From a virus: a DNA stretch of 35,586 bases. The stretch is from positions 1-35,586 of the IMG/VR virus record IMGVR_UViG_3300032271_000316. One strand, written 5' to 3'. A program made the translations under genes and the position numbers. This document shows, piece after piece, positions 9,199 through 16,505 of the stretch. Under the pieces are notes generated by a model that saw only the letters and a program-made list of their open reading frames with translations, did no database searches and was not told the origin of the DNA. Position 1 is the first letter of the stretch. Each line of letters opens with the position of its first letter.

Positions 9199-9250
9199 CT
9201 TGTCACACCTTGTCACAGGCTAGGGAACATGTGACAAGGTGCTGTGACAA
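9199..9250. other. Nested TTGTCACA inverted repeats: candidate cos/pac or terminase-binding site
   Basis: Two direct copies of TTGTCACA (9,200-9,207 and 9,210-9,217) face two inverted copies, TGTGACAA (9,230-9,237 and 9,243-9,250). The inner pair extends to perfect 12-bp arms (9,206-9,217 and 9,230-9,241) around a 12-base centre that holds the CCTAGCC motif. The element sits directly upstream of the small terminase gene, where lambda-type phages keep cosB. Autoregulation of the terminase operon is an alternative. Confidence 0.55.
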
Positions 9251-11835: not shown

Positions 11836-12486
11836 TCACGAACTGAAACCAGGCTCAGAAGCCCGAGCCTTCCAGGTCGCCCAGGCGCCAGCCCAGGCCA
11901 TGCGGCACTCAGCGACGCTGTAAAGCGGGCTGAAGGTGGTCTGGCCAGGGCGGCACCAGATGGTCTGCCCGGCGTCGTAGTGCTGGCCATTCGTGGCCTC
12001 CAGCGCCATGTAGCCCCCGAGCTGCACGGCGGTGGAGTAGCTGCTGCCGTTCTCACCGAGGGTCTTGAGGTCCGCCAGGATCCGTCGGCCGTCGGCGTCG
12101 ATGTAGGCGCAGTCAAAGGTGCCAGCAACGCGGCGCTGGATGCAGCAGGTCGGGCGTTCGCTGGCGATCACCTGGAGGCTGTCCCAGCGCTCGTGGGTGA
12201 TCAGCGGCTGAATCCAGTCGGCATGGTCACCATCGGCCAGCTGCCGCAGCTCATCGTTCATGTCCTGCTGCAGGAACAGCTCCAGGGCCTTGTGGGTCTG
12301 ATTGCCGCGCGACTCCCAGGTAGCGCGTGTGGCCTCGATGCGCTCCATGGCCAGATCGGACTTCAGGACGGACAGGACGCCGGTGACGCTGATGGGGAAC
12401 TCCACCTCTCCCAGCCAGTAGCGGTGGCCAGGGTCGCGGCGGCGAAGGCCGGGGATGGGTTGGAGCCAGGGGTGCGGGGTGGGCAT
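11836..12486 (-). CDS. PD-(D/E)XK nuclease, RecB/Cas4-like
   Basis: 216 residues. The C-terminal half carries the nuclease signature: AGTFDCAYIDADGRR then ILADLKTLG, i.e. the metal-binding Asp of G-x-x-D and the D-L-K of the (D/E)XK core, followed by YSTAVQLGGYMALEA, the Q-x-x-x-Y motif of the RecB-like group. The N-terminus has SVTGVLSVL and a helical RGNQTHKALELFL block (His in the H-x-x-E-like position). It likely trims DNA ends for recombination with the single-stranded DNA-binding protein encoded at 23,404. It ends with an in-frame palindromic element (11,851-11,870). Confidence 0.8.
   Translation of the reverse strand: MPTPHPWLQPIPGLRRRDPGHRYWLGEVEFPISVTGVLSVLKSDLAMERIEATRATWESRGNQTHKALELFLQQDMNDELRQLADGDHADWIQPLITHERWDSLQVIASERPTCCIQRRVAGTFDCAYIDADGRRILADLKTLGENGSSYSTAVQLGGYMALEATNGQHYDAGQTIWCRPGQTTFSPLYSVAECRMAWAGAWATWKARASEPGFSS
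11850..11870. repeat. Palindromic element inside the nuclease gene end
   Basis: AGGCTC (11,851-11,856), 8-base spacer AGAAGCCC, GAGCCT (11,865-11,870). It encodes the RASEPG stretch at the C-terminus. The spacer is nearly identical to that of the copy in the protease-capsid gene. Confidence 0.5.
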
Positions 12487-12548
12487 GGGTGGTGAAGGGG
12501 TGGGGGGTCTCGCGCGCGTCGTGGGACGTCCAATGTGACTCCATCGGA

Positions 12549-12566
12549 TCAGACTCCAGAGCCTGA
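12549..12566. repeat. Palindromic element in the origin-like gap
   Basis: TCAGACTC, CA, GAGCCTGA: 8-bp arms with one mismatch and a 2-base centre, like the copy at 23,204. It lies among the TGTGAC motifs. Confidence 0.45.
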
Positions 12567-12598
12567 CTCACTTTTTGGTCGGTCACATGCCTGTCACC

Positions 12599-12646
12599 AT
12601 GTGACTCCCGCGTGCCAATTCTGAAATTGGACTACGGGAGTCACAT
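12599..12646. repeat. 48-bp near-perfect palindrome
   Basis: Outer arms of 12 bp (12,599-12,610 and 12,635-12,646) and inner arms of 6 bp (12,615-12,620 and 12,625-12,630) are separated by a 4-by-4 unpaired bulge, with a 4-base loop CTGA. It could extrude as a cruciform or fold in RNA. No T-tract follows on either strand. Confidence 0.8.
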
Positions 12647-12726
12647 TGTGACTGCCATGTGACCTGCCTTAAACCCTCTCTATGACTACCTTTTTTAGAC
12701 ATAGAGTCACATGAGGACGCACGTAA

Positions 12727-14928
12727 TTAAGGGGGCATCGATCGGTCCTCGTTCGAGGCGAACCACTGAGCGCCCAGCGGCGTGAGCTTCCAGTGGCCCG
12801 GCATCGACTGGACCCGAGCGATCATTGGCCGCCTGCCGCCGCTGGCCCTGGTGATCGAATTGGCCACCGTGCCGCGGCTGTAGCACTTGATCCGGCCCAG
12901 CTCAGCAAACAGGTCCTTGCGGTGGAGGCTGGGTTTGCCCTGCTCCATCGCCTGCCAGAGCAGCAGGCCGATGCCATGGCGCACATCACGGATCACCTCC
13001 GTGGCGGCCGTGACCTTGAGCGCGCCGGTGTCCTCATCGATCTGGTAGTGGAACTCCCGAGCTGTTCCCTGCCGGCACTTGCGCACGACCCATGCGCGCA
13101 GCTTGGTGGAGTAGCGGGTTCGCTTGGGTTTGGGTCCAGCGAACCCGTCGTTGTCTTCGCCTTCCGGCACCATCTCCAACGCGTGCACCATCGATGGGAT
13201 TTCCTTCCATGCCTTGGCGCCTGCGGCTTCACCGCCGGCGGTGCCGTCGTGATTGAGCCATAGGACGGACGTGTGGCGGCAGATCACCTCCTTGGTGAAC
13301 GTGAGCAGCGCGGTCACCTGGCTGTTGTCGCAGTAGTTGACATCTGCGCGGGCCGTGACGGCCTTGCAACTGTCGATCACCACCAGGCGGATGGGATGGG
13401 ACCGCACGAAGCCCAGCAGCGCCAGGCAGCCGCGCAGTGATGCCTCCCAGCCGAGCGCGCTCTGCTCGGGGTCGTGCGCCCAGACGTGGAACCGGCTGCC
13501 ATCGCCAGACGCCGCCAGTGCCGGGTGATCGGCCTTGCCCAGCTCCTGCAGGGTGCGCACCAATGGCGCCGGGCCGGAGTCTGCGGCGATCATCAGGACA
13601 TCACCCTGAAGCGGCAGGGAATCGCGGTCAAGGAAGCCGGTGCCATCGATCACGGCAAAGGCCATCGCCAGCGCTGCCGTTGTCTTGCCGGCACCGGCCG
13701 GAGCGAACAGCAGGGTCTGATCATTGGCCGGCAGGAAGCCTTCCAGCAGCCAGTCAATGCCGACCACCTTGGACAGGTCGATGGAGCGGTAGGACGGCCG
13801 TTGCTGTGGCGTCGCGCCATCGCTGCGTTGCTCCTGCTCGGTGAGAAGCCGGAACAGGGCCGCCTGCAGTTGACCGTCCGTGCGTCTGAAGCGCGCCATG
13901 AGCTCAGCGCGGATCGTCATCTCGTCGTCGTCGTCACCATCGCGGATGGCGGCCAGCAGCAATGCCAGCAGCTCGCGGTAGGTGGCGGGCGGCGCTGCGG
14001 TCGGCTCTTCGTGGTCAACACCGCCTGATGGCTTTCCCGGCTGCTGCTGCTCCTGCCGCGGCCGCTGGTACCTGTAGCCGTCCTGGCCGGCCATGTAGTG
14101 GAGCGTGCCGATGCTGACGCCACTGCCTTTGAAGCTGGCCCACTTCGCCAGGCATTCGGCCTCGTCGAAGCTCGAGCACCCGCGCGACCATGCCAACCAA
14201 TCAGTGAGCAGCCCTGGATCCACCGAATGCAGCGCCATGCCGACGGATAGCCAGCCGTCGTAGTCCTCGCGCGGCCGGATGTGCGCCAGCAGGTCCAGGG
14301 CGCGCGGTACGTCCGCTTCGGTGCTGGGTTGGTGCTCAGCTGCGGCCGGTTCGTCGTGCGGCTTGTGCAGGGCCGCCAGCAGCCATTCCGGCGCGTCGGC
14401 CACCTGCAGATCGGCTGGTGACTGCCCAGGCAGCCAGGAGTAGCCACCGGTGTCAGGGTGCGCACCAGCGATGACGGACTGGTGCCCGGTGCCGCGCAGC
14501 TCCAGGACGATGCGGCCGGCGTCATTGCGGAAGACGCGACGACCGCGCAGATGGGGCCATAGGTCACGCGGCACGCGGTAGGCCATCTGCCGGCGGTTCG
14601 GCAAGCCTGAGGTCCAGCCGACGGTCTTGGGCAGTGCGGACCAGACACGGCCGAACTCCTGGCGGAAGCGTGCGACGGCACCGGATCCATCGAAGTCAAC
14701 GGCGATCACGCCAGACGCTTCACCCAGCACCAGGCCAACGGCCTTGACGAAGCTGGAATCCGCCAGCTCGGCGATGCCATCAGCGTCGTGGGTGGCGTTG
14801 GCCCAATCCGTCTTGATCTCCCCGGTGGCGGGGTCTACAGGCCGCTTGAGGCCATCGCAGGGGATCAGCCGCCAGTCCGAATCCACCTGCTGGAGCTCCG
14901 CCAGGAGCTCGGCTGCCAGGGTCATCAC
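12727..14928 (-). CDS. Primase-polymerase/helicase replication protein
   Basis: 733 residues. Residues 1-200 look like a bifunctional primase-polymerase domain (WANATHDADGIAELA, GVIAVDFDGSGAV with Asp78 and Asp80, and later GTGHQSVIAGAHPDTG). About 215-290 resemble a primase C-terminal helper (YDGWLSVGMALHSV ... AECLAKWASFKG). A RecA-like ATPase follows with Walker A LFAPAGAGKTTAA near 410, Walker B-like RLVVIDSCKAV near 515 and LWLNHDGTAGG near 550. The last 70 residues suggest a winged helix. GTG at 14,928 or ATG at 14,925, the latter overlapping the RHH stop. It should prime and unwind phage DNA. The candidate origin lies directly downstream. Confidence 0.9.
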   Translation of the reverse strand: MMTLAAELLAELQQVDSDWRLIPCDGLKRPVDPATGEIKTDWANATHDADGIAELADSSFVKAVGLVLGEASGVIAVDFDGSGAVARFRQEFGRVWSALPKTVGWTSGLPNRRQMAYRVPRDLWPHLRGRRVFRNDAGRIVLELRGTGHQSVIAGAHPDTGGYSWLPGQSPADLQVADAPEWLLAALHKPHDEPAAAEHQPSTEADVPRALDLLAHIRPREDYDGWLSVGMALHSVDPGLLTDWLAWSRGCSSFDEAECLAKWASFKGSGVSIGTLHYMAGQDGYRYQRPRQEQQQPGKPSGGVDHEEPTAAPPATYRELLALLLAAIRDGDDDDEMTIRAELMARFRRTDGQLQAALFRLLTEQEQRSDGATPQQRPSYRSIDLSKVVGIDWLLEGFLPANDQTLLFAPAGAGKTTAALAMAFAVIDGTGFLDRDSLPLQGDVLMIAADSGPAPLVRTLQELGKADHPALAASGDGSRFHVWAHDPEQSALGWEASLRGCLALLGFVRSHPIRLVVIDSCKAVTARADVNYCDNSQVTALLTFTKEVICRHTSVLWLNHDGTAGGEAAGAKAWKEIPSMVHALEMVPEGEDNDGFAGPKPKRTRYSTKLRAWVVRKCRQGTAREFHYQIDEDTGALKVTAATEVIRDVRHGIGLLLWQAMEQGKPSLHRKDLFAELGRIKCYSRGTVANSITRASGGRRPMIARVQSMPGHWKLTPLGAQWFASNEDRSMPP

Positions 14929-15194: not shown

Positions 15195-16505
15195 ATGACC
15201 CAGGCGCAGTTCACTGCGACGGCACCGCTGACCGTTGAGGTCAAGCTGTCCCAGATCGTTTTTGATGAAGGCCTGTACCCACGGGTTGAAGGCCACGACC
15301 CCGCCACGGTCCAGACCTACGTGCGCGACATGGAGCAGATCGAGGCGGCTGGAAAGCTGATCTCGATCAACGCCGACGGCGTGCTCTTGGACGGTCGCCA
15401 TCGGATGCTGGCCTACAAGACCCGTGCCGATGGTGCTGACCCTGAAGTCCGGGTCTACCAGTACCCGATCAGCAGCAAGCTGGAATCATTCCGGCTGGCC
15501 TGCGAGCTGCAGGACCGTGGCTTTGCGCTGAACAACAACGACCGCCAGGCCAGCGCCAAGCGGCTGTATGCGCTGGGTAATCAAAGCCAAGCCGACATCG
15601 CCAAGGTGCTTGGCGTCTCAGCGCCAACCGTGAGCAAATGGCTGTCGCGCACGATCAAGGAGGAGAAGGAAGCCAAGCAGAAAAAGGCGCGTGAGATGTG
15701 GCTGGCCTGCGCCACCCAGGAGGAGATCGCCGAGGCGGTCGGGGTGCCGCGCCAAACCATTGACGGGTGGACGGCAGATTTTGCTGAAAGTTGCCTTGCG
15801 CAAGATTCGGCAAATCCTCCCGGCTTTGAGCCACCCATCTACAACGTCTGGAGGCAACAGGCCAAGACCAACGCCGTCAGCCATTTCGGCAATAGCGAAA
15901 CGCGTTGGGTCGAGAACCTGCTGTACCTGTACACCAACCCAGCCGGCATCGTGGTGGATCCGTTCGGTGGTGGTGGGTCCACCATCGACGCCTGCAAGAA
16001 GTGGAGCCGCCGCTACCACGTCTCGGACCGCAAGCCGATTGTGGCGCGTGAGCATGAGATCAGGCTGCACGATCTCACCACTGGCCTGCCGTCGCTGCGC
16101 TGGAAGGATGTGGACCTGGTCTACCTGGATCCGCCGTACTGGAAGCAGGCAGAAGGCCAGTACAGCGACGACCCGACCGACCTAGCCAACATGGAGCTGG
16201 AGCAGTTCAACAAGGAACTGGCCGGGATCATTAACGGCTTCGCCAAGAAGCTCAAGGATTCCGCCAGCGATAAGCCGGCCTACATCGCGCTAATCATCCA
16301 ACCGACGCAGTGGAAAGCGCCAGAGCGCCAGTTCACTGATCACGTTGGCGACATGTTGCGAGCGGTCAAGCTGCCGGTGAACATGCGCTACTCGGTGCCT
16401 TACGAGTCGCAGCAGTGCACCGCGCAGATGGTGGAGTGGGCCAAAGCTGCTAAGCGCTGCCTGGTGCTGACACGCGAGATCGTGGTGTGGGAGGTTCAGC
16501 GATGA
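15195..16505 (+). CDS. ParB-domain / DNA methyltransferase fusion
   Basis: 436 residues. Residues about 12-110 form a ParB/sulfiredoxin-type domain (VKLSQIVFDEGLYPRVEGHD; LLDGRHRMLAY, 64-74). Two helix-turn-helix segments follow: SQADIAKVLGVSAPTVSKWL and TQEEIAEAVGVPRQTIDGW. The C-terminal half is an amino-methyltransferase: DPFGGGGST (Asp255 onward, the cofactor loop) and LDPPYW (Asp312-Tyr315, the catalytic motif), in the order cofactor loop then catalytic motif. It should methylate adenine N6 or cytosine N4 at a site chosen with the help of its HTH. It may protect phage DNA or regulate transcription. It overlaps the next, putative nuclease gene by ATGA. First gene of the plus-strand early operon. 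Confidence 0.9.
   Translation: MTQAQFTATAPLTVEVKLSQIVFDEGLYPRVEGHDPATVQTYVRDMEQIEAAGKLISINADGVLLDGRHRMLAYKTRADGADPEVRVYQYPISSKLESFRLACELQDRGFALNNNDRQASAKRLYALGNQSQADIAKVLGVSAPTVSKWLSRTIKEEKEAKQKKAREMWLACATQEEIAEAVGVPRQTIDGWTADFAESCLAQDSANPPGFEPPIYNVWRQQAKTNAVSHFGNSETRWVENLLYLYTNPAGIVVDPFGGGGSTIDACKKWSRRYHVSDRKPIVAREHEIRLHDLTTGLPSLRWKDVDLVYLDPPYWKQAEGQYSDDPTDLANMELEQFNKELAGIINGFAKKLKDSASDKPAYIALIIQPTQWKAPERQFTDHVGDMLRAVKLPVNMRYSVPYESQQCTAQMVEWAKAAKRCLVLTREIVVWEVQR

Follow-up and report, generated by a model that had tools for sequence, protein, structure and literature searches.

Origin Candidate in the Gap Downstream of the Primase–Helicase Gene

The locus considered here raises the question of whether a 240-bp non-coding gap, filled with short repeats and placed directly behind a primase–helicase gene, is the site at which a phage begins to replicate, and, if so, which part of which protein reads the repeats. 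The window, by which we mean the whole stretch of DNA analysed, is a viral sequence record 35,586 bases long, in which no end repeats were found. Its terminase, portal, capsid, tail, integrase and sigma-factor genes, together with the 82% DNA identity of its terminase genes to those of Synechococcus phage S-LBS1, indicate a temperate siphovirus, and the presence of terminase, portal, capsid and tail genes sets it apart from satellite islands, which lack a full virion gene set. Related loci occur in Synechococcus, Cyanobium and Vulcanococcus genomes, which makes a picocyanobacterial host very likely. At 15195–16505 on the plus strand, the window also encodes a predicted protein of unusual composition that mixes ParB-like, several HTH and N6/N4 methylase matches. 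GC skew gave no usable signal across the window because the gene strands switch. The elements of the locus are as follows.

12487–12726, no strand: proposed replication origin, a 240-bp non-coding gap between two co-directional minus-strand genes
12727–14928, minus strand: primase–helicase, proposed initiator (Pfam Prim-Pol 1.7e-18, PriCT_2 4e-18, AAA_25 3.3e-14)
12751–12993, minus strand: its C-terminal winged-helix domain, proposed iteron reader (AlphaFold2 H-H-H-E-E, core pLDDT 85–94)
11836–12486, minus strand: PD-(D/E)XK exonuclease-like gene downstream of the gap (PHROG 298 4.3e-13; PF12705)

We propose that the gap is, with high probability, an iteron replication origin of a picocyanobacterial temperate siphovirus, opened by the primase–helicase, which reads the iterons via its C-terminal winged helix. 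Support for this reading comes from the clustered repeats and soft stretch, from the order of the genes, from the modelled winged helix, and from the way in which iteron type varies with the C-terminal domain. In the proposed mechanism, the primase–helicase would bind the ATGTGAC iterons through its C-terminal winged helix, the AAA helicase ring would assemble over them, the adjacent soft stretch (12668–12707) would then be melted, and the N-terminal Prim-Pol domain would prime synthesis. The start of replication at the gap, the iteron binding and the melting are inferred.

Iterons, Stems and the Soft Stretch

The gap starts at the stop codon of the minus-strand primase–helicase gene and is thus immediately 3′ of the proposed initiator gene, behind which the preliminary description had placed it. 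It contains six copies of ATGTGAC, three per strand, and one near-variant, TTGTGAC, in the numbers first reported; the 48-bp nested palindrome, the second stem and the palindromic element described at the same time are likewise real in the sequence.

12533–12539, plus strand: iteron ATGTGAC, motif match
12582–12588, minus strand: iteron ATGTGAC, motif match
12599–12605, plus strand: iteron ATGTGAC, motif match
12640–12646, minus strand: iteron ATGTGAC, overlapping ATGTGACTCC (12637–12646), invariant in five relatives
12646–12652, plus strand: near-iteron TTGTGAC, motif match
12657–12663, plus strand: iteron ATGTGAC, motif match
12706–12712, minus strand: iteron ATGTGAC, on the primase side of the soft stretch; GTGACTCTATG invariant in relatives
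12549–12566, no strand: palindromic element TCAGACTCCAGAGCCTGA, arms paired 7/7 in all six close relatives
12599–12646, no strand: 48-bp palindrome of two opposed iterons, 12 + 6 pairs, 4-nt internal mismatch, 4-nt loop
12678–12688/12696–12706, no strand: second stem, 10/11 paired
12668–12707, no strand: softest 40-bp stretch, proposed unwinding element, holding the T-rich loop and the CTCTATG/CATAGAG stem

Counted over the entire window, TGTGAC is no more frequent than expected (18 copies against 18.4). The heptamer count of six was reached in 0 of 500 dinucleotide shuffles of the gap, and none of 695 other 300-bp stretches of the window matched the gap's repeat count. The stretch at 12668–12707 ranks first as the softest 40 bp of the 35.6-kb window according to nearest-neighbour energy. 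As expected of an iteron origin, short repeats clustered beyond chance lie beside the gene of the proposed initiator, and an easily melted stretch adjoins them. Six sites are located on one side of this stretch and one on the other, primase side; in three of the related loci considered below (L089, L110 and L112), sets of sites are found on both sides. A search of Rfam gave no match, which indicates no known RNA element.

Fold of the Proposed Iteron Reader

The last domain of the primase–helicase and that of a second C-terminal class among the related proteins were both modelled as winged helices (AlphaFold2, core pLDDT about 85–95). VIA-align matched the two models to winged helices of the MarR, PadR, TubR and DtxR types, with a best Z of 10.9 for the window and 12.1 for the other, and the matches of the window's domain also included the archaeal MCM C-terminus and ORC2. 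Similarity of fold does not in itself establish what a domain does. Hsp70 matches returned for the window's model by Foldseek alone were rejected as spurious (TM about 0.26), VIA-align having given winged helices. The origin-binding domain of P4 alpha is absent among the 50 fold-comparison matches listed, and an alignment of the C-terminal domain against sequences of solved structures gave no useful match. For the whole protein, solved structures gave weak matches in the ATPase part only, to RAD51 paralogues and, more weakly, to RepA.

These data bear on the possibility that the repeats are operators through which the primase–helicase or a phage repressor controls the replication operon, the origin being elsewhere. 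MarR- and PadR-type proteins are the nearest folds, the gap sits between two co-directional genes, and in plasmids the same sites commonly serve as operator and origin. However, no sigma-70-like promoter or terminator was found in a scan of 12300–12900, and the number of sites, their spread and the genome's softest stretch fit an origin better, while control by the primase–helicase itself would be compatible with an origin. We regard the operator explanation as improbable.

Conservation of the Gap in Close Relatives

The gap is kept in five relatives, in which the complete primase–helicases are about 71–73% identical. The segments GTGACTCTATG, ATGTGACTCC, TCAGGCTC(T/A)GGAGTCTGA and TGGAGTCAC are invariant or nearly so. 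The same holds for the CTCTATG/CATAGAG stem, which encloses an A-rich loop and has 7/7 pairs in each of the six sequences compared. Since L116 and L120 retain a single strict ATGTGAC and most of their other sites read GTGAC or GTGAT, the exact iteron is loose and its core is probably GTGAY. In three close relatives (L122, L093 and L097) the heptamer test gives a weak result, with 14–21 of 500 shuffles reaching the count. The repeat arrangement of the window, searched for as an exact pattern in viral contigs, gave no match, and comparison of the gap DNA with phage records gave weak partial matches at E 10 only.

The palindrome behaves differently from the iteron cores. Its outer arms are paired 12/12 in the window versus 8–10/12 in the relatives, so that the 48-bp structure, earlier put forward as part of the origin, looks like a by-product of two opposed iterons. 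This also concerns a stem-loop origin of the pRN1 type, in which the primase–helicase would recognise the palindrome itself. The origin of pRN1 is a 100-bp stem-loop just downstream of a Prim-Pol/helicase/winged-helix gene (PMC4234260), and the window does have a palindrome of 12 + 6 bp in the gap after its primase–helicase gene; but a large conserved stem-loop of this kind is not found, as the palindrome is not kept in the five relatives and the iteron cores are, which makes such an origin very unlikely here.

Related Loci Keep the Gene Order and Differ in Their Repeats

We chose the nuclease gene as the anchor for finding related loci, because it is kept where the primase–helicase is exchanged, and scanned viral contigs and prokaryote genomes. 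The order replication protein, gap, nuclease was found in about 35 loci of picocyanobacterial viruses and prophages, several of which are near-duplicates. Most of the gaps have a short repeat of their own, usually present on both strands, whose count is reached in 0–2 of 500 shuffles. For 22 of the 35 loci, no other part of the locus equals the gap in repeats. The original proposal of an iteron origin with an unwinding stretch beside its initiator gene is well supported by these loci. There are about 14 repeat types in all, one of them weak.

GTGAC: window-type gaps
CCGGACA: L095, L104
CGGGAAT: L101, L105, L109, L128, L131
CGTGAAA: L154, L159
GCCAACA or GCCAACC: L089, L107, L110
TACCCGA: L127, L135
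TGCTGAA: L134
GGGCAAT: L085
CCTAACC: S-LBS1
AAGTTTC: L114, L149, L152, L155
AAGAATC: L153, L162 (Synechococcus sp. WH 5701)
AAAGATT: L157
GGGGGAC: L156
ATGAATG (weak): L001

In L134 the repeat cluster is about 2 kb from the gene end, and the gap of isolate S-CBS3, which has a distant nuclease, is without a repeat cluster. In S-CBS3 (L168, 1276–1576), the RepA-like helicase gene contains four GTGACAA in its 3′ portion, which may be an origin within the gene. In L085 (3493–3957), the open frame of the replication gene extends across the GGGCAAT iterons, which may place the origin within the initiator gene, an arrangement like that of lambda O.

A second element, approximately TTGCRGYGCARNSGWTCT, occurs in gaps with different iterons (L089, L101, L114, L131, L149, L154, L156, L157, L001 and others) and is absent from the window. 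It has 37 matches in 11.4 kb of gap versus 14 in 408 kb elsewhere, a ratio inflated by the fact that the pattern was picked after seeing the matches.

Repeat Type Follows the C-Terminal Domain

The proteins upstream of the gaps are mosaic in structure. Some begin with Prim-Pol/PriCT_2 and others with an unrelated N-terminus, and AAA_25 or DUF3987 makes up the middle part. We compared 465 protein pairs, taking the last 115 residues as the C-terminal domain, with iteron classes and a similarity measure that were defined after seeing the data. Repeats are shared by none of the 394 pairs with unlike C-terminal domains, even though the N-terminal primases are alike in 89 of these pairs and the helicase parts in 25. 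Among the 71 pairs with like C-terminal domains, all of which are also alike in the helicase, so that the two parts are confounded, the repeat is shared in 41 (33 of 50, plus 8 of 21 in which the N-terminus is unlike). A partial Mantel test of the iteron on the C-terminal domain, given the N-terminal and helicase parts, yielded r = 0.18, a value as high being reached in 0 of 2000 permutations.

Individual pairs follow the same pattern. The window and L131 have an N-terminal similarity of 0.55, a C-terminal similarity of 0.07 and no sharing of repeats; L131 and L109 have values of 0.04 and 0.83 and a repeat sharing of 0.76. In one family of close relatives, each of three repeat types is paired with its own version of a C-terminal helix (ALSAYKT, ALTTYK or ALSIYTT). 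In a second family, proteins with ESTIRNN or ESTVRNN have CGGGAAT, and those with EGSVRNN have CGTGAAA or ATGAATG. The preliminary description had suggested a comparison among related phages, with loss of the repeats beside a kept primase as counter-evidence; the repeat does change beside a kept N-terminal primase, and it does so when the C-terminal domain is exchanged.

Taken together, the co-variation supports the view that the C-terminal domain of the initiator sets iteron specificity, and the repeat and the protein part that would read it seem to evolve as lock and key. On balance, we lean towards a more general statement, namely that picocyanobacterial siphoviruses swap primase, helicase and winged-helix domains almost freely, and that the origin iteron co-evolves only with the winged helix. 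That the repeats are read by another phage protein, such as the ParB-like HTH/methylase (15195–16505), as a partition or accessory site is very unlikely: the product has HTH and ParB-like matches, but no homologue was found in the (limited) flanks of iteron-sharing relatives, and the repeat type tracks the primase–helicase C-terminus.

Repeats in the Terminase Gap

The TGTGAC core had been reported to recur at the terminase gap, with one DNA-binding factor suggested for both places. A TGTGAC cluster is indeed present there, at 9202–9248, with a different extended motif, TTGTCACA. Nearly all relatives retain the inverted repeats TTGTCACA/TGTGACAA ahead of the small terminase gene. Among them are L028 and L056, in which the primase gap has iterons unlike TGTGAC, namely ATTCCCG and CCAACA. 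The terminase-gap repeats therefore form a separate element, and the suggestion of a common factor is contradicted. They are more likely part of the packaging site, and 9202–9248 is a candidate terminase-binding (cosB-like) site. Seven related contigs (L006, L015, L018, L024, L039, L053 and L070) have a common starting point in the alignment, to within one or two bases. It lies 144–147 bp upstream of the small terminase gene, at about 9333/9334 of the window, and suggests a fixed DNA end (cos). For S-LBS1, headful packaging instead of cos was inferred by its authors (PMC6157547).

Significance and Comparison with Known Systems

The gap is a well-supported candidate for an iteron origin of a known kind, undescribed for this phage group in the literature searched. 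Our search of open-access literature for replication-origin iterons of cyanophages gave a single paper, which concerns ICP1, a phage of Vibrio cholerae, and the satellite PLE. The matched sets of proteins and repeats represent natural exchange experiments and make C-terminal reading directly testable, and the origin could supply replicon parts for picocyanobacteria. If the proposed pairing is true, some 14 natural protein–repeat pairs, some of them few residues apart, would provide a readable code for origin-binding winged helices, and the pairing of iteron and winged helix would set which phages share or block each other's replication.

In the Lake Bourget isolate S-LBS1, a repeat cluster (CCTAACC, 11 copies) likewise stands behind the primase–polymerase gene, whereas the helicase, the C-terminus and the iteron differ from those of the window and the nuclease gene is missing. 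The S-LBS1 paper mentions no repeat or iteron (PMC6157547). At the end of the S-LBS1 record (L004, last ~405 bases), part of the CCTAACC repeat region is present twice, perhaps as an assembly overlap of a circular contig.

P4 alpha combines a primase, a helicase and a winged-helix origin-binding domain that reads origin repeats in one protein (PMC4234260). Its primase is of the Toprim type (PMC4234260), in contrast to the Prim-Pol (AEP)/PriCT_2 primase of the window protein. The predicted winged-helix C-terminus is common to both proteins in fold alone, with no sequence relation. No second cluster resembling crr of P4 was seen in the window.

In ORF904 of pRN1, Prim-Pol, helicase and C-terminal winged helix are combined, with the origin just downstream of the gene (PMC4234260), and the C-terminal winged helix of Prim-Pol replication proteins has been suggested as the origin reader in related families (PMC5862659). 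The window has the same domains and a candidate origin directly downstream, but with iterons, whereas in pRN1 the helicase is of the SF3 type and the origin is a long stem-loop that lacks iterons.

SaPI Rep recognises, through its C-terminal domain, iterons that directly follow its gene (PMC7581432). In PICIs, the origin is found 3′ of the gene for the initiator, and its iterons surround an AT-rich stretch (PMC6092414). The window resembles these pri-rep-ori modules in its initiator helicase, there sometimes fused to a primase, with the origin directly 3′, in its short iterons and AT-rich stretch, and probably in C-terminal reading, which is suggested here by co-variation (PMC6092414, PMC7581432). 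Unlike them, the window's module belongs to an autonomous temperate siphovirus and has an AAA_25/RepA-like helicase, and its iterons are short and on both strands, with only one on the primase side of the soft stretch.
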